DNA from: Chloroflexota bacterium
GTDB taxonomy: Bacteria; Chloroflexota; Dehalococcoidia; JACQUO01
Reading direction: 5' to 3'
NCBI GenBank assembly: GCA_016210205.1
Contig: JACQUO010000023.1
Span: 129,788 to 193,787, forward strand
Length of the DNA: 64,000 nucleotides
Shown: positions 7,127 through 14,337 of the stretch, piece by piece
Layout: each line of letters starts with the position of its first letter
How positions within the stretch are numbered: position 1 is the first letter of the stretch
Notes under the pieces: generated by a model
What the model was told of the DNA's origin: nothing
The model's input: the letters and a program-made list of their open reading frames with translations, nothing else
Database searches by the model: none
Translations under genes and position numbers: made by a program

Positions 7127-7990
7127 TTACGCGAACTGCTCCAGGAGCTCCTGGAGGCTCCCTTTGCCCTCTGGTGCAGCCTGCTGGCGGATTTCCTCCA
7201 GCCCCTCCTCCAGGGTCGGGCGCGAGGCCTGATAGAAGAGCCCCAACGGTATCTTCTCTCCCTGGGCCAGGGCCTGCCCCAGGGCCGCCAGGCGGTCGGA
7301 GGGGTTATGGGTGGCCGGCAGGTTCGTCACCCGCTCCTGGTAGTACCGGTAGGTCTCGATGGGGTTGAAGGTGACGCAGGGGCTGAGCACATGGATGAAG
7401 CCGAATCCTCTGTGCCGTATCCCCTGGGCCATCAGCTCCGTGAGCTGCTCGTGGTGCTGGGCCCCGGCGAAGCCCCGAGCCACGAAGGAAGCTCCATAGG
7501 CCAGGGCCAGGAGCACCGGGTTCACGGGCTGGTCTCGGTTGCCGTAGGGCGCGGTGCTGGTCACCTGGCCCTGGGGGGTGGTGGCCGAGGTCTGGCCCTT
7601 GGTCTGGCCGTAGAGGGAGTTGTCCACCAGGATATAGGTGAGGTCCGGGTTGCGCCGGGCCACATGGGGCAGGTGTCCCCCGCCGATGCCCATGCCGTCG
7701 CCATCGCCGCCCACGGCGAGGACGGTGAGCTCGGGTCGAGCCACCTTGGCCCCCACCGCGATGGGCAGGGCGCGCCCGTGGACGGTGTGGAACCCGTAGC
7801 TGTTGACGAAGCCCGGCAGCCGTCCGGAACAGCCGATGCCGGAGACGATGATGGTCTCCTCGGGCACAGCCTTCACCTGGGAAAGAGCGCCGTAAAGGGC
7901 GGAGAGGACATTATAGTCGCCGCAGCCGGCGCACCAGATAGGCCGGCGCGCGCTCTGATAGGTCAGCGGAGAGATGCTGACAGTAATCAT
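7127..7990 (-). CDS. korB: 2-oxoacid:ferredoxin oxidoreductase, beta subunit
   Basis: Carries the thiamine diphosphate part of a CoA-dependent 2-oxoacid:ferredoxin oxidoreductase. WCAGCGDYNVL near the N-terminus and GGDGDGMGIGGGHL...NPDLTYILVDN form the ThDP/Mg binding motif. CGCS-type cysteines for an FeS cluster appear as CAGCG, SGIGCSGR and SPCVTFNP. At 287 residues it fits KorB-type subunits. The start ATG overlaps the korA stop as ATGA, so the pair is translationally coupled. 2-oxoglutarate is the likeliest substrate by family resemblance, but pyruvate or another 2-oxoacid cannot be excluded. No separate ferredoxin-like delta subunit is adjacent. Confidence 0.9.
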   Translation of the reverse strand: MITVSISPLTYQSARRPIWCAGCGDYNVLSALYGALSQVKAVPEETIIVSGIGCSGRLPGFVNSYGFHTVHGRALPIAVGAKVARPELTVLAVGGDGDGMGIGGGHLPHVARRNPDLTYILVDNSLYGQTKGQTSATTPQGQVTSTAPYGNRDQPVNPVLLALAYGASFVARGFAGAQHHEQLTELMAQGIRHRGFGFIHVLSPCVTFNPIETYRYYQERVTNLPATHNPSDRLAALGQALAQGEKIPLGLFYQASRPTLEEGLEEIRQQAAPEGKGSLQELLEQFA

Positions 7991-9717
7991 GGCTGGCTTG
8001 CCTCCTTGATGGCCGCCACCACCTCCCCCGGGGTGATGGGCCGCCCCTCTGGGATGGCCAGGGAGGTCACCGGCAGGCCCAGACGCGCCTTGAGCAGGCT
8101 GGCGAACTGGCCGGTGTAGTTGGATTCAGGGACGATGATGGCCCCCAGCCCCCGGACGAAACGGCGGATTTGCGCCTCCGGCAGGGGATTGAGGGCCAGA
8201 GGATAGAGGGCCCGGGCCGACAGGCCCTGCTCCCGGGCCTGGGCGATGGCCTCCCGCACGGCCCCCTCGGTGGAGCCCCAGCCGATGAGGCCTACCCTGG
8301 CCTGGGAGCTGCCGAAGACATGGACCTGGCGCAGCTCCCTCCCCGCCATCGCCAGCTTGTGGAAGCGCTTCTCGGTCATGCGGCGGTGCATCTCGGAGGT
8401 GTAGCTGGGAGCGCCCTCCTCGTCGTGTTCCAGGCCCGTGGCCACATAGGTGCCCCCGGGAGTGCCGGGGCGGGCCATAGGGGAGACCCCACTCTCGGTG
8501 AAGCGATACCTCTTATAGCCGCCAAGGTCATCGGGGGACGGCAGGAGGCGCCTGGTTTTGTGAACCTGGAGGAGGCGGGGCCGGTCGAAAGCCTCCCTGC
8601 GCTTGGCGATGAACTGGTCCAGGAGGATGATAACGGGCATCTGATACCTGTCCGCCAGGTTGAAAGCCTTCAGCGTGAGCCCAAAGCAGCTCTGGACATC
8701 GGTTGGGGCCAGGACGATGCGGGGGGCCTCGCCATGGGAGCCGTAGAGCGCGAGGTTCAGGTCGGCCTGCTCGGGCTTGGTAGGGAGGCCCGTGCTGGGA
8801 CCACCCCGCTGCACATCCACGATGACCGCGGGGATTTCGGCCATGCTGGCCAGGCCGATGAGCTCCTGCATGAGGGTGAAACCCGGGCCAGAGGTGGCCG
8901 CCATAGCCCGCTCCCCGGCGAAGGAAGCCCCCAGAACCATGCCCAGGGCCGCCATCTCGTCCTCGCCCTGGAGCACGGCGCCGCCGAACTTGGGCAGCTC
9001 CCGGGCCAGGAACTCCATGATGTCCGTGGCCGGGGTGATGGGGTAGCCGGCGAAGAGCTTGAGCCCCGCGGCGATGGCCCCCAGGGCCACGGCCTCGTTG
9101 CCGGACATGACCAGGTGGGCGCCCATTTCCCCCTGTCGGGGGCGCAGGTGGAACTTGAGGTGAGCGGAGTCCGCGGCATAGGTGAAGCCGACCTTGAGGG
9201 CCGTCAGGTTCGCTTCCATCTGGTCCGGGAAGCGCTCTTTCACGGCCTCGGTCAGGTACTTCTGGGGCAGACCCAGGAGCCGGCCCGCCAGCCCCAGGGC
9301 CACCATGTTGCGGGCTCGGGCGCTGGCTCCGGCCAGGCGGAGGAGCTCTGCCATGGGCACAGGACAGATATAGTGGCCCTCGTGGTCGAACTCGCAAGCC
9401 AGGGGGTGGTCGGTGGCAGCGGCCCCCTCGTAGATGGCCATGCCGCCCTCCTTGAGGGCCTCCAGATGGGGCAGGGCCGCCTCCCTATCGATGGCCAGGA
9501 GCAGGTCCAGACGCTCCCCGGGGTCCGTCACGGGGGCCGGGCTGATGCAGACCTGATAGACGGTGTCGCCGCCGCGAACCTCGGCGCCATAGCTTTCGAA
9601 GGTATGGCTGTGGAGGCCCCAGTGGCCCGCGGCCACCGCCAGCAACTCGCCTGCAGTGATAATCCCGTCGCCGGCGCGGCCGCTGACCCGGACTACGACC
9701 GCTTTCGCTCGCCTCAT
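7987..9717 (-). CDS. korA: 2-oxoacid:ferredoxin oxidoreductase, fused gamma-alpha subunit
   Basis: A 576-residue fusion. Residues 1-190 are the gamma domain (VRVSGRAGDGIITAGELLA, YGAEVRGGDTVYQV). The rest is the alpha subunit: GNEAVALGAIAAGLKLFAGY, PITPATDIMEFL, the QGEDEMAALGMVLGASFAGE segment, ATSGPGFTLMQE, then the PTKPEQADL loop and transketolase-C-like domain. Together with KorB it oxidatively decarboxylates a 2-oxoacid to acyl-CoA and reduces ferredoxin, or runs in reverse to fix CO2. The gene begins 1 bp after the upstream regulator stop, so regulator-korA-korB is one operon. Confidence 0.92.
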   Translation of the reverse strand: MRRAKAVVVRVSGRAGDGIITAGELLAVAAGHWGLHSHTFESYGAEVRGGDTVYQVCISPAPVTDPGERLDLLLAIDREAALPHLEALKEGGMAIYEGAAATDHPLACEFDHEGHYICPVPMAELLRLAGASARARNMVALGLAGRLLGLPQKYLTEAVKERFPDQMEANLTALKVGFTYAADSAHLKFHLRPRQGEMGAHLVMSGNEAVALGAIAAGLKLFAGYPITPATDIMEFLARELPKFGGAVLQGEDEMAALGMVLGASFAGERAMAATSGPGFTLMQELIGLASMAEIPAVIVDVQRGGPSTGLPTKPEQADLNLALYGSHGEAPRIVLAPTDVQSCFGLTLKAFNLADRYQMPVIILLDQFIAKRREAFDRPRLLQVHKTRRLLPSPDDLGGYKRYRFTESGVSPMARPGTPGGTYVATGLEHDEEGAPSYTSEMHRRMTEKRFHKLAMAGRELRQVHVFGSSQARVGLIGWGSTEGAVREAIAQAREQGLSARALYPLALNPLPEAQIRRFVRGLGAIIVPESNYTGQFASLLKARLGLPVTSLAIPEGRPITPGEVVAAIKEASQP

Positions 9718-9718
9718 G

Positions 9719-10387
9719 TCATGTTATCCTGGGAGAGCCCTTCTTGGGGTCTCCTTCGCTCTTATTGATGATATAGCTACAGCACTCCTGGCCCCCCGCC
9801 CGGGACGTCTCCCGCATCACATTCACCCCCAGCAGCCCCTTGATGAAGGTCTGGTCCACGGCACAGAGGGACTGGTGAGCCTCGGCCACCAGCCGGTAGG
9901 GACAGTTGTGAGCCACCAGAGCGTAGTGGTCGCCCTCGGTGCGGCACTCGGCAGAAAAACCCTCCTCGTTGAGGATGCGGCAGACCTCAGCAACCCGCTC
10001 CCCCAGGTCTTTGCCCAGCATACGCTCCCCGTGGCGAGCAGCGAGCCGCTGGCCCATGCGTTGATAGAGATGGGCTAGCACCTCAAGGCCATCCTTCCCG
10101 TATAGCTCCTGGACGCCAAGGCTAGCCAACTCCTGAATAAGGGAACTGGAGAGTCGATGGTACTTCCGGGGAAGCATCTCCAGGCTAGCCTCGGTGAGGA
10201 AATAGCTGTGGTGGGGCCGGCCCGTGTCCCGGTGCACCACCTCATAGGCCACCAGGTTATCTCGCTGCAGGATGTCCAGGTGACGCCGCACGGTAGCGGG
10301 CGCCAGCTTGAGGAGCTCTGCCAACTCCTCGGCCCGGGCCTCCCGCTGCTTCTGCAGGATTTCGATGATGTGTTCTCTTGTGCCCAT
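9719..10387 (-). CDS. winged-helix regulator with C-terminal Cys cluster (SufR/DeoR-like)
   Basis: A 222-residue transcription regulator. The N-terminal winged helix (TREHIIEILQKQREARAEEL, then APATVRRHLDIL) resembles ArsR/DeoR-type helices and the wing follows as DTGRPHHSYFLT. The C-terminal half has HNCPYR, SLCAVDQTF and QECCSY, a Cys set like that used by SufR-type repressors to hold an Fe-S cluster. It precedes korA by 1 bp, and its product may sense redox or Fe-S status and control the ferredoxin-dependent enzyme. An inverted repeat upstream at 10480-10502 is a good candidate operator. Cluster binding is inferred from the cysteine pattern only. Confidence 0.82.
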   Translation of the reverse strand: MGTREHIIEILQKQREARAEELAELLKLAPATVRRHLDILQRDNLVAYEVVHRDTGRPHHSYFLTEASLEMLPRKYHRLSSSLIQELASLGVQELYGKDGLEVLAHLYQRMGQRLAARHGERMLGKDLGERVAEVCRILNEEGFSAECRTEGDHYALVAHNCPYRLVAEAHQSLCAVDQTFIKGLLGVNVMRETSRAGGQECCSYIINKSEGDPKKGSPRIT

Positions 10388-10436
10388 CTCTTTCTATTAT
10401 AAACCCCCCTTGAAGTGGAATGCCCTTGCGGTGTTC

Positions 10437-10465
10437 AGTATACCAAAGGGGTTTCGTTTTAGCAA
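10437..10465 (-). promoter_or_regulatory. promoter for regulator-korA-korB operon
   Basis: Minus strand TTGCTA (10465..10460), 17 bp, TATACT (10442..10437). A second TATAAT at 10401..10396 lies just before the ATG but has no clear -35. Confidence 0.5.
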
Positions 10466-10479
10466 TTAAAATCATTTAA

Positions 10480-10502
10480 TGGTTAAAAGCTAGACTTAAC
10501 CA
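10480..10502. promoter_or_regulatory. perfect inverted repeat, candidate operator
   Basis: TGGTTAA-9 nt-TTAACCA is a perfect 7-bp dyad in the divergent region between the winged-helix regulator and the small zinc-ribbon gene. It overlaps the -35 box of the rightward promoter and lies just upstream of the leftward -35 box, so one bound protein could affect both. Confidence 0.55.
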
Positions 10503-10519
10503 CAATATTATGCTAAAAT
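10491..10519 (+). promoter_or_regulatory. promoter for small zinc-ribbon gene
   Basis: TAGACT (10491-10496), 17 bp, TAAAAT (10514-10519), with an extended -10 TG one base before the hexamer. Confidence 0.5.
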
Positions 10520-10545
10520 ATCAACAAAGCCTGGAGGGGTGAGCC

Positions 10546-10779
10546 ATGAGGAAAAAACTAGCCCCTGTCCTGGAGACCCCGCCCCAGGAGCGAGAGAAGC
10601 CCCTTGCCGATTGCCAGCATCACTGGGTCATCGATTCTCCCCATGGCCCTGAGAGCCGGGGCGTCTGCCGCAAGTGCGGCGCCCAAAAGGCCTTCCTGAA
10701 TACCTTCCGCTCCTATTTCTGGGAGGAAGACTCCCAGGGAGAGGCCCGGCGGCGGGCCGCCGCCTCGGATCAGGGCTGA
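10546..10779 (+). CDS. conserved small zinc-ribbon-like protein
   Basis: A 77-residue protein with CQHHWVIDSPHGPESRGVCR followed by KCGAQKAFLN. The pattern C-x-H-H...C-x-x-C-G resembles a family of small actinobacterial/Chloroflexota proteins with HHW(I/V)I(D/E)SP.GP.SRG.C..CG. The residues suggest one zinc ion. The role is unknown. A good Shine-Dalgarno (GGAGGGG) precedes ATG 10546, and the gene has its own promoter next to the candidate operator, so it may belong to the regulon of the divergent regulator. Confidence 0.75.
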   Translation: MRKKLAPVLETPPQEREKPLADCQHHWVIDSPHGPESRGVCRKCGAQKAFLNTFRSYFWEEDSQGEARRRAAASDQG

Positions 10780-10816
10780 GGGACAGGTGTTGACAGAGGG
10801 ATAGCCGTCCCACAAA

Positions 10817-12121
10817 ATGGTGGCGCTGGCGGAACGGCCCTGGGGGGCCGGTGCCTCCGACGAGGTGGGGATGGCGTCAAAAAATCATGACCTAGAGCGA
10901 GAGCTCCAATCGCTGCTGGCCCGGGAAGGCCGTGTCACCTTCGCCCAGTTCATGGAGGTGGCACTATACTGGCCTGGGGCGGGTTATTATACCTCAGGGC
11001 GCAGCCCGGCGGGGCCGGAGGGCGACTATTACACCAGCCCCTCCGTCCATCCCGCCTTCGGCGCCCTCCTCGCCCTGCAGATGGAGGAGATGTGGCAGCG
11101 CTTGGCCCGCCCCCACCGCTTCTGGGCCGTTGAGTTGGGCGCGGGGCCGGGCCGCTTGGCCCAGGACATCACCGGCTTCTCCCGCCATCTCGACCCCCAA
11201 TTCGCTGCCGCCCTCCGCTATGTCTGCGTCGACCGCGGTGGGGGCGGCGGTCCGGGCGGCCTCCGCGCCCTACGGGCCACGGGCATCCCCTTTCGCAACC
11301 TGATAGGCTGTATCCTGAGCAACGAGCTCCTGGACGCCTTCCCCGTCCACCGGGTGAGGAGGCAGGGCAGAAGGCTTCTGGAATCCTTCATCTCCCTGTC
11401 AGAGGGCAAGCTCACAGAACTCTGGGCCGAGCCCTCCACCCCGGCTCTGGCAGAATACCTGGCCGCCCTGGGAATAAGCCTGCCCGAGGGGTGTCTGGCG
11501 GAGGTCCGCCCCGCCTTAGCACCCTGGATACGAAAGGTGGGCCAGGCCCTATCCCGCGGCTTCGTCCTCACCATCGACTACGGGGGCCTGGCCCCAGAGC
11601 TTTATGGCGCACATCAGCCCCAAGGGACGCTGCTGTGCCACTATCGCCATACCGTCCACCAAGACCCCCTGGCCCATCTGGGGGAGCAGGACATCACCGC
11701 CCCCGTGGACTTCACCACTCTGGTCATGGCGGGCGAGGAGGTTGGGCTGGAGCCCCTGGGGCTGGTGAGCCAGGGCCGCTTCCTGGAGAACCTCGGCCTG
11801 CGCGAGTACCGGGAGGCCCTCGCCCGGCGAGGGCTGCCCTCCGCGGAGCACCACGCCAACCAGATGGCTCTCCTGGACCTGGCCCGGCCCGAGGGGATGG
11901 GCAACTTCCGGGTTCTGGTTCAAGGCAAGGGCGTGGCGACGGAGCCGCTCCTGGGCCTGATTCCCTCCCCGTCCCACTGGAGGCGGCTCAGGGAACTACC
12001 CCTGCCCCAGCTGGAGCCAGAGCGGGCCTTCCTCCTGCGGGGCCGCTATCCCCACCTAGCCCAGGAGATTGACCCGCAACCCCCATCCGAAATGCCCGTG
12101 GCGCCGAGAAAGGGTGACTAG
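10817..12121 (+). CDS. MidA/NDUFAF7-family SAM-dependent methyltransferase (COG1565)
   Basis: Predicted protein arginine methyltransferase-like enzyme; the mitochondrial relative NDUFAF7 modifies a complex I subunit. Family features: ITFAQFMEVALYWPGAGYYT-like N-terminus (here VTFAQFMEVALY), GDYYTSPSVHPAFGALLA, the SAM motif VELGAGPGRLAQDI, LSNELLDAFPVHRV, and LTIDYGG. Start ATG 10817 is the long choice; ATG 10871 (MASKNHDLERE) has a better ribosome site (GAGGTGGGG) and fits the family N-terminus well. The substrate in bacteria is not established, and no complex I genes are near. Confidence 0.82.
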   Translation: MVALAERPWGAGASDEVGMASKNHDLERELQSLLAREGRVTFAQFMEVALYWPGAGYYTSGRSPAGPEGDYYTSPSVHPAFGALLALQMEEMWQRLARPHRFWAVELGAGPGRLAQDITGFSRHLDPQFAAALRYVCVDRGGGGGPGGLRALRATGIPFRNLIGCILSNELLDAFPVHRVRRQGRRLLESFISLSEGKLTELWAEPSTPALAEYLAALGISLPEGCLAEVRPALAPWIRKVGQALSRGFVLTIDYGGLAPELYGAHQPQGTLLCHYRHTVHQDPLAHLGEQDITAPVDFTTLVMAGEEVGLEPLGLVSQGRFLENLGLREYREALARRGLPSAEHHANQMALLDLARPEGMGNFRVLVQGKGVATEPLLGLIPSPSHWRRLRELPLPQLEPERAFLLRGRYPHLAQEIDPQPPSEMPVAPRKGD

Positions 12122-12122
12122 C

Positions 12123-13088
12123 ATGCCCGACCAGGAACACCTTCTGGATGCCTATTCCCAGGCGGTGACCAGGGTGGTGGAGAAGGTCAGCCCCACCGTG
12201 GTGAAAATCGGGGTCTCCCAGCCCGCCCAGGGGGGGCGGGGCCGCCGCCACGAGCACACCGGCGCCGGCTCCGGTGTCATCATCGCCCCCGACGGCTACA
12301 TCCTCACCAACAGCCATGTGGTCCACGACGCCCAACACCTGGAGGTGACCACCGCCGCCGGCCAGACCTTCCCCGCCCAGACGGTGGGGGAGGACCCGGA
12401 CACCGACCTGGCGGTGATTCGCGGCGAGGCCCGGGACTTGCCCGTGGCGAACCTGGGGGACTCGGACAAGCTCAAGGTGGGCCAACTGGTCATCGCCATC
12501 GGCAACCCGCTGGGGTTCCAGGCCACGGTCACCGCCGGGGTGGTGAGCGCCCTGGGCCGCTCCCTCCGGGGCCAGGCGGGAAGGCTCATCGAGAACATCA
12601 TCCAGACCGACGCAGCCCTCAACCCGGGCAACTCCGGCGGCCCCCTGGCGGACACCCTCTCCCAGGTGGTGGGCATCAACACCGCCATCATCCCCTTTGC
12701 CCAGGGGATTTCCTTCGCCATCCCCATCAACACCGCCCGCTGGGTCATGGGGCTGCTCATCAAGGAAGGGCGGGTGCGCCGGCCCTACCTGGGCGTCTCC
12801 GTAGCGCCCGTGCCCCTGCATCCCCGTATGATAGCAGCCCTGAAGCTGCCCGCGGAGCGGGCCCTGCGGGTGGTGGAGGTGGTGCCGGGCAGCGGGGCCG
12901 ACGCGGCGGGCCTGGAGCCAGGGGATATCATCGTGGCGGTGGACGGCCGCCCTATCCAGAGCGCCGACGAGCTGCACCAGCTCCTGGCCAAGATGGGCAT
13001 CGGCGCGGAGCTCTCCCTGGCCGTCATCCGGGAGTACCAGTGGCTGGAGTTTCGCATCAAGACCCGGGAAGCGCCTCCCCCCAACTGA
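12123..13088 (+). CDS. HtrA/DegP-type serine protease with PDZ domain, no signal peptide
   Basis: S1C family protease of 321 residues. The catalytic triad is visible as LTNSHVVHD (His), DTDLAVIR (Asp) and NPGNSGGPL (Ser). One PDZ domain follows (YLGVSVAPV, GSGADAAGLEPGDIIVAVDG). The true start is ATG 12123 (MPDQEHLL), 18 codons inside the track ORF, directly after the methyltransferase stop. There is no signal peptide or N-terminal membrane helix, so unlike typical DegP it should act in the cytosol. It probably shares a transcript with the upstream methyltransferase. Confidence 0.9.
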   Translation: MPDQEHLLDAYSQAVTRVVEKVSPTVVKIGVSQPAQGGRGRRHEHTGAGSGVIIAPDGYILTNSHVVHDAQHLEVTTAAGQTFPAQTVGEDPDTDLAVIRGEARDLPVANLGDSDKLKVGQLVIAIGNPLGFQATVTAGVVSALGRSLRGQAGRLIENIIQTDAALNPGNSGGPLADTLSQVVGINTAIIPFAQGISFAIPINTARWVMGLLIKEGRVRRPYLGVSVAPVPLHPRMIAALKLPAERALRVVEVVPGSGADAAGLEPGDIIVAVDGRPIQSADELHQLLAKMGIGAELSLAVIREYQWLEFRIKTREAPPPN

Positions 13089-13152
13089 GAGGGCGAGGCG
13101 TGGCCATAGGCCGGGATAGCACCGGCCCCATAAAGTCGACAGGAGGCACCCC

Positions 13153-14337
13153 ATGGCCTTTGAAATCGCCAAGGACGTCTATTGGGTGGGCGCCCTGGAC
13201 GCTCAAATCCGCATTTTCGATGTCATCATGAAGGCCCCCCATGGCACCACCTACAACGCTTACCTGGTCAAAGGTCGGGACAAGACCGCCCTGATTGACA
13301 CCGTCAAGGCCAAATACAAAAACACCCTCCTGACCCACCTGCGGGAGCTTATCGACCCCAAGGAGCTGGACTATATCATCATCAACCACACCGAACCCGA
13401 CCACACGGGGGCTTTGGAGACCCTCATGGCGCAGGCTCCCCAGGCCCGGGTAGTCATCTCCCGCACCGCGGAGAGCTACCTCAAACACCTCCTCAACCGG
13501 GATGTGGCCCCCCTCAAGGTGGGCGACGACGATGTCCTGGACCTGGGCGGGCGTGAGTTGCGCTTCTTCTCCACCCCCTTCCTCCACTGGCCCGACACCA
13601 TGTTCACCTACCTGCCCCAGGAGAGCATCCTCTTCCCCTGCGACTATCTAGGATGCCACTTCTGCGACGAGCGTCTCTGGGATGACAGCGTGGACGACTT
13701 CTCCGCCTCCTTCGACTACTATTTCCACATCATCATGCGCCCCTTCAAGGAATATAGCCGCAAGGCCCTGGAAAAAATCACGCCCATGGACTGGAAGCTC
13801 ATCGCCCCCAGCCACGGGCCGCTATTGCGCAGCAACCCCCGTCGCTACCTGGAGCTCTACCGGCGCTGGAGCCAGGAGCCCCCGGCAGCAGACCGACCCA
13901 AGTCCCTGATTGTCCTCTACGCCTCGGCTTACGGCAACACCGGGGCCATGGCCCAGGAGATAGCCCGGGGGGCCGAGGCCGCCGGAGCCAAAGTTATGGT
14001 TTATGACCTCATGGCTTTAGATAGCGACCCCCGGCTAGTGGACGCCGTGGAACAGGCCGACGGCCTGGCCGTGGGCTCCTGCACCATCAACGCCGACGCG
14101 GTGCGTCCGGTCTGGGAGTTCCTGGCCAGCCTGGCCACCTTGCGGGTCAAGGGCAAGGTAGGAGTGGCCTTCGGCTCCTACGCCTGGAGCGGCGAGGCCC
14201 CCAAGCTCATCGAGGAGCGGCTGCGGGGCCTGAAGCTCAAGGTGAGCGAGGAAGCCCTGAGAGCGCACCTGGTGCCCACGGCGGAGGACCTGGCCCACTG
14301 CCGCGAGCTGGGGGAGCGGTTGGCCAAGTCCCTATGA
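13153..14337 (+). CDS. flavodiiron protein (FprA family A-type flavoprotein)
   Basis: Reduces O2 to water (or NO to N2O) and protects anaerobic metabolism. The N-terminal beta-lactamase-like domain has the di-iron ligands NHTEPDHTGALE (H-x-E-x-D-H), FLHWPDTMF, PCDYLGCHF and APSHGPL. The C-terminal flavodoxin domain starts at about residue 250 with YASAYGNTGAMAQEIARG as the FMN phosphate loop. At 394 residues it is a standard two-domain FDP without fused rubredoxin. The start ATG follows AGGAGG. It converges with the superoxide dismutase gene, making a small oxygen-defence locus. Confidence 0.95.
   Translation: MAFEIAKDVYWVGALDAQIRIFDVIMKAPHGTTYNAYLVKGRDKTALIDTVKAKYKNTLLTHLRELIDPKELDYIIINHTEPDHTGALETLMAQAPQARVVISRTAESYLKHLLNRDVAPLKVGDDDVLDLGGRELRFFSTPFLHWPDTMFTYLPQESILFPCDYLGCHFCDERLWDDSVDDFSASFDYYFHIIMRPFKEYSRKALEKITPMDWKLIAPSHGPLLRSNPRRYLELYRRWSQEPPAADRPKSLIVLYASAYGNTGAMAQEIARGAEAAGAKVMVYDLMALDSDPRLVDAVEQADGLAVGSCTINADAVRPVWEFLASLATLRVKGKVGVAFGSYAWSGEAPKLIEERLRGLKLKVSEEALRAHLVPTAEDLAHCRELGERLAKSL

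Follow-up and report, generated by a model that had tools for sequence, protein, structure and literature searches.

A SufR-like regulator and a divergent small CxHHW...CxxCG gene in Dehalococcoidia, with a candidate operator between their promoters

SufR proteins (Synechocystis sll0088, Mycobacterium tuberculosis Rv1460; profile TIGR02702) carry an N-terminal winged helix and a C-terminal set of cysteines, and those characterised so far are repressors (PMC8593673; PMC6034842). M. tuberculosis SufR requires C203, C216 and C244, spaced X12 and X27 (PMC6034842), while the cyanobacterial motif is C-X12-C-X13-C-X14-C (PMC8593673). The partner of SufR is suf, its promoters are divergent or autoregulated with a conserved promoter-near site, and its operator is CAAC-N6-GTTG. 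No paper on SufR in Chloroflexota was found in the open-access literature.

The locus described here lies in a 64,000-nucleotide stretch of DNA, analysed as a whole and called the window, from a Chloroflexota genome of the class Dehalococcoidia (assembly of 1.42 Mb, 87.5% complete). Its features are as follows.

7127-7990, minus strand: korB-like 2-oxoacid:acceptor oxidoreductase beta subunit (TIGR02177, 311 bits)
7987-9717, minus strand: korA-like 2-oxoacid:acceptor oxidoreductase alpha subunit, a gamma-alpha fusion (TIGR03710, 625 bits)
9719-10387, minus strand: SufR-like winged-helix regulator, 222 aa, Cys162-X12-Cys175-X27-Cys203 (TIGR02702, invariant cysteines, fold)
10437-10465, minus strand: sigma-70-type regulator promoter TTGCTA-17-TATACT, TG before the -10 box
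10467-10490, plus strand: predicted regulator-binding site TAAAATCATTTAATGGTTAAAAGC (9.8 bits with a position-anchored weight matrix built from relatives alone)
10480-10502, no strand: perfect dyad TGGTTAA-N9-TTAACCA, exact in the sequence, unconserved at related promoters
10491-10519, plus strand: sigma-70-type small-gene promoter TAGACT-17-TAAAAT, TG before the -10 box
10546-10779, plus strand: small zinc-ribbon-like protein, 77 aa, C23-x-H25-x-W27 ... C41-x-x-C44, conserved in 53 sequences

The regulator and its place in the SufR family

The regulator matches TIGR02702 (SufR_cyano) over residues 3-207 (E=1.9e-22) at 80 bits, below the curated cut-off of 178.8 bits that a full-length SufR match exceeds. 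In a predicted-structure search the N-terminal winged helix, the fold it shares with SufR, is the one part that matches known structures. C162, C175 and C203 are invariant in 13 of 13 aligned regulators, among them members of clade A and of the suf group described below, and their X12/X27 spacing is identical to that of Rv1460, whereas the third cysteine of the cyanobacterial motif is missing, with no cysteine between C175 and C202. A first-pass annotation of this DNA had recognised a C-terminal cysteine set like that of an Fe-S sensor, and this reading stands: to judge from its cysteines, the regulator is probably an Fe-S sensor of SufR-like type.

The divergent promoters and the promoter-near site of SufR are also paralleled in the window, but the partner genes differ, being the small CxHHW...CxxCG gene and korAB in place of suf, and Mrp in clade A. 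By inspection, the window intergenic sequence contains no CAAC-N6-GTTG, and the motifs of clades A and B are different from it. No suf link was seen for the window regulator, which is followed by korAB in an 87.5% complete genome where no SUFBD_core and no full Mrp were detected. A suf-linked homologue from the same class (L103) has a similar TIGR02702 score (75 bits) and three cysteines visible in its own sequence that are conserved in its clade-mate L101; in contrast with the window regulator, it belongs to a separate clade, heads sufC-sufB (SufB 704 bits; SufC from sequence and order) and a following 448-aa gene that is probably sufD (sequence and order), and has no divergent small gene. 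Upstream of the suf-group regulator L101 (genome G128) lies GCAAC-TTCAAT-GTTGC, the published cyanobacterial SufR operator pattern. The window genome (G000) also has two aminotransferase-V/NifU_N pairs on contigs C23 and C31 (L243, L244), the one on C23 being preceded, as judged by eye, by a 152-aa Rrf2/IscR-like gene (L243, 4419-4877).

As the first-pass annotation had noted, the regulator heads a korAB operon, with 1 bp between its stop codon and the korA-like gene, which the korB-like gene follows. We considered korAB as a conserved partner and rejected it: korAB was seen directly downstream of the regulator at no other locus, and among the compared loci the linkage is specific to this genome. 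The KorAB enzyme is oxygen-sensitive and itself depends on Fe-S clusters. A regulatory link to korAB is plausible as a lineage-specific trait, and control of korAB may be incidental read-through, since repression when Fe-S clusters are plentiful would oppose the enzyme's need for them.

A divergent pair across Dehalococcoidia

The small partner gene, which the first-pass annotation had called conserved, is indeed found divergently paired with the regulator across Dehalococcoidia. The two genes are divergently adjacent in 23 of 148 class genomes, and the pair is present at 13 of 18 loci fetched later (once with the genes about 1 kb apart) and at 29 of 80 named loci, some genomes being common to these several sets. 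Among the cultivated carriers of the pair is Candidatus Lucifugimonas marina JH1073 (L188). A search of genome contigs gave no match with the single protein and 80 loci with an alignment.

The small proteins share the pattern CxHHWxIxxPxGxxSxGxCxxCGxxxxFxN (53 sequences), and a structure model of the window protein has three short strands. Over C23-C44 it resembles DUF5817 (PF19134) weakly (E=3.5e-4, 20.9 bits), failing the gathering score of 31; four of 14 members match this family at E 0.01. Neither sequence nor fold comparison with the PDB gave a significant match. From its residues, the protein would be expected to bind zinc.

In trees, the pairs across Dehalococcoidia and SAR202 fall into two regulator clades, A and B, and the suf-group regulators form a clade separate from both. 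In clade A the regulator is followed on the same strand by Mrp/ApbC at 18 of the 18 loci with enough contig (two checked against NCBIfam); at one of the clade A loci (L083, 3204-4628) the Mrp is a 474-aa protein with a C-terminal extension resembling a further domain. Clade B, which holds the window, mostly has the pair alone: at 18 of 28 loci the following gene points the other way, and these 28 showed no downstream partner in common.

The region between the divergent promoters

Both divergent promoters predicted by the first-pass annotation could be located as sigma-70-type promoters, each with a TG before its -10 box. That of the small gene has its -35 box TAGACT at 10491-10496 and its -10 box TAAAAT at 10514-10519, and that of the regulator, on the minus strand, has TTGCTA at 10465-10460 and TATACT at 10442-10437; the spacer is 17 in both. 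Both -35 boxes are poor, with 4 of 6 consensus matches. Relatives have a small-gene promoter close to consensus (TTGACA-17-TATAAT or slight variants of it). An alternative pair of boxes in the window, TTAAAA at 10483 and TATTAT at 10511, would move the anchor of the matrix described below. The best explanation of 10388-10545 is that the regulator and the small gene, a conserved divergent pair, share it as their control region. Further along the small gene's strand, 10817-14337 encodes a SAM-methyltransferase, then an HtrA-like protease and a flavodiiron-type (FprA-like) protein; a promoter-like site, TTGACA-17-CAAAAT, lies at 10790-10818 just 5' of the methyltransferase gene, and these three genes may form a separate transcript or receive partial read-through from the small gene.

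The first-pass annotation had proposed as operator the dyad TGGTTAA-N9-TTAACCA, overlapping one -35 box and abutting the other. The dyad is exact at 10480-10502 (TGGTTAAAAGCTAGACTTAACCA), has 7-bp arms and is the sole perfect copy in the genome; it does cover the -35 box of the small gene, but 14 bp separate it from that of the regulator. By itself it is unremarkable, because dyads of equal quality arise often when the intergenic region is dinucleotide-shuffled: perfect 7-bp arms around a spacer of 0-16 appear in 23% of the shuffles, and in 15% when at least two G/C per arm are required. The dyad alone is thus not beyond chance and is weak evidence. With up to 3 mismatches, its pattern has 17 genome copies versus 14 for the reversed control pattern. 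Conservation upstream of orthologous regulators, on which the annotation had staked its own proposal, was not found: with at most 1 mismatch the dyad occurs in 43 of 393 class genomes, which is about the level of the reversed control, and no regulator locus is among the matches. Moreover, at 17 clade B small-gene promoters the arm positions pair at 1.35 of 7, versus about 1.9 by chance. We therefore set the dyad aside as operator, since it is unconserved upstream of related regulators and the conserved element is 10467-10490.

This element fills the gap between the divergent -35 boxes, flush with that of the small gene and 1 bp off that of the regulator, and has 11 bp in common with the dyad. 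The right half of the conserved site is 10480-10490, which in the dyad make up the left arm and the beginning of its spacer; the right arm of the dyad lies within the promoter spacer and is without counterpart in relatives. Most plausibly, then, the dyad combines the conserved right half-site with a TTAACCA in the promoter spacer that is complementary to it by chance.

Motif discovery in the pair regions, with the window left out, gave the palindrome GGTtttTAC.GTAaaaACC in clade A (EM log-likelihood 100 versus 33 +/- 2 in shuffles) and the motif gCATTTTTTGCAAAAAATGc in clade B (71 versus 31 +/- 2.5). In both clades the predicted sites commonly end at or near the near-consensus TTGACA -35 box of the small gene. 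The clade A matrix has no significant match in the window (5.7 bits, with 60% of shuffles as high), nor has a first, palindromic and unanchored clade B matrix (20-23% of shuffles as high), whereas an anchored, non-palindromic clade B matrix matches significantly. This matrix was built from 17 clade B relatives, the window left out, and spans the 24 bases that precede the -35 box of the small gene. At 9.8 bits, 10467-10490 is as high as the best training members in leave-one-out, with shuffle p of 0.00015, 0.0008 and 0.0005 for three training sets and dinucleotide-shuffle p of 0.0006-0.0026; with all three sets, 10467 scores best of all positions in the AT-rich portion of the intergenic DNA.

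As a control, the matrix was applied to 155 further strong promoters from the loci compared. L088 and L094 take the first two ranks, the site lying at the TTGACA upstream of the regulator itself, and a clade B small-gene promoter (L075) takes the third; these ranks support binding of the site by the regulator, as well as autoregulation. L088 and L094 are clade B loci without the small gene, where the predicted site lies at a TTGACA pointing to the regulator. The matrix is weak, about 6-7 bits, and its significance holds for sites anchored to the -35 box but not across the genome: when built from 20 sequences, it gives six places in the 64 kb window a higher score than 10467-10490, none of them at the regulator/small-gene locus. 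The last 19 bases of the site are unique in the genome at up to 3 mismatches, so that a search at this level gave no further targets, and no convincing site was found in two fetched IscS/IscU-type regions of the genome. The clade B motif differs between subclades, several members lack a recognisable site, and from clade A to clade B the operator and the recognition helix seem to have changed in step. Since the nearest regulators are about 40% identical to that of the window, and the compared set holds no relative closer than class, the window operator could have drifted.

An Fe-S-responsive switch and its alternatives

We consider it reasonably likely that an autoregulated SufR-like Fe-S switch controls the small gene from 10467-10490, its holo form repressing its own transcript and the small gene. 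A regulator dimer would most likely bind 10467-10490, between the divergent -35 boxes; by analogy with SufR, the cluster-loaded protein would repress the regulator-korA-korB transcript and the small gene, and once iron limitation, oxygen or NO had removed or damaged the cluster, the apo-regulator would release both transcripts. Autoregulation is probable. The Mrp/ApbC linkage of clade A speaks for an Fe-S role; the TIGR02702 score below the cut-off and the failure to detect SufBD or Mrp in the genome speak against this reading. The first-pass annotation had likewise proposed an autoregulated redox switch that also controls the small protein; this is probable in so far as the pair and an inter-promoter site recur, and falls where the dyad was made its operator. 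In short, the regulatory pair it pointed to is real and conserved, and its guess at the sensor class was good, but the element it took for the operator was the wrong one.

Three other readings were weighed. The dyad could still be a lineage operator that has diverged, shifted downstream by about 11 bp and come to straddle the -35 box of the small gene; exact arms over that box, a sole perfect genome copy and the resemblance of TGGTTAA to the clade A half-site GGTTTTTAC would fit, but arms that pair below chance in the 17 relatives, a class-wide scan at control level without a match at regulator loci and an expectation in 15-23% of shuffles make this unlikely. We give similarly little credence to activation by the regulator, in which a dimer placed at about -48 relative to each start site would touch RNA polymerase at both -35 boxes. 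Activators commonly bind directly upstream of a -35 box and flush with it, and the poor boxes of the window (4 of 6) could call for one, even though both promoters have a TG before the -10 box; against this, the relatives' near-consensus small-gene promoter needs no activator, which favours repression, and characterised SufR proteins repress (PMC8593673; PMC6034842).

It is less likely still that there is no specific site, the matches reflecting AT-rich promoter DNA and the two genes staying together for other reasons. The low information of the matrix, the AT-rich region and the insignificance in the window of the clade A matrix and the first clade B matrix are what such a reading predicts; however, it accords poorly with the anchored shuffle p of 0.00015-0.0008, with motifs strong over shuffles in both clades, and with the best promoters outside the training set belonging to the SufR-like regulator family. 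Our preferred reading remains repression from 10467-10490.

SufR-like sensors are common in Dehalococcoidia and SAR202; the partner they keep most constantly is a small uncharacterised protein, to which the pairing gives a testable role. The arrangement of clade A ties Mrp/ApbC, an Fe-S carrier, to a dedicated sensor. We tentatively suggest, as a possibility that falls short of an even chance, that the small protein is an unrecognised Fe-S or metal homeostasis factor in Dehalococcoidia, placed under widespread SufR-like sensors that are uncoupled from suf and, in one clade, accompanied by Mrp/ApbC.
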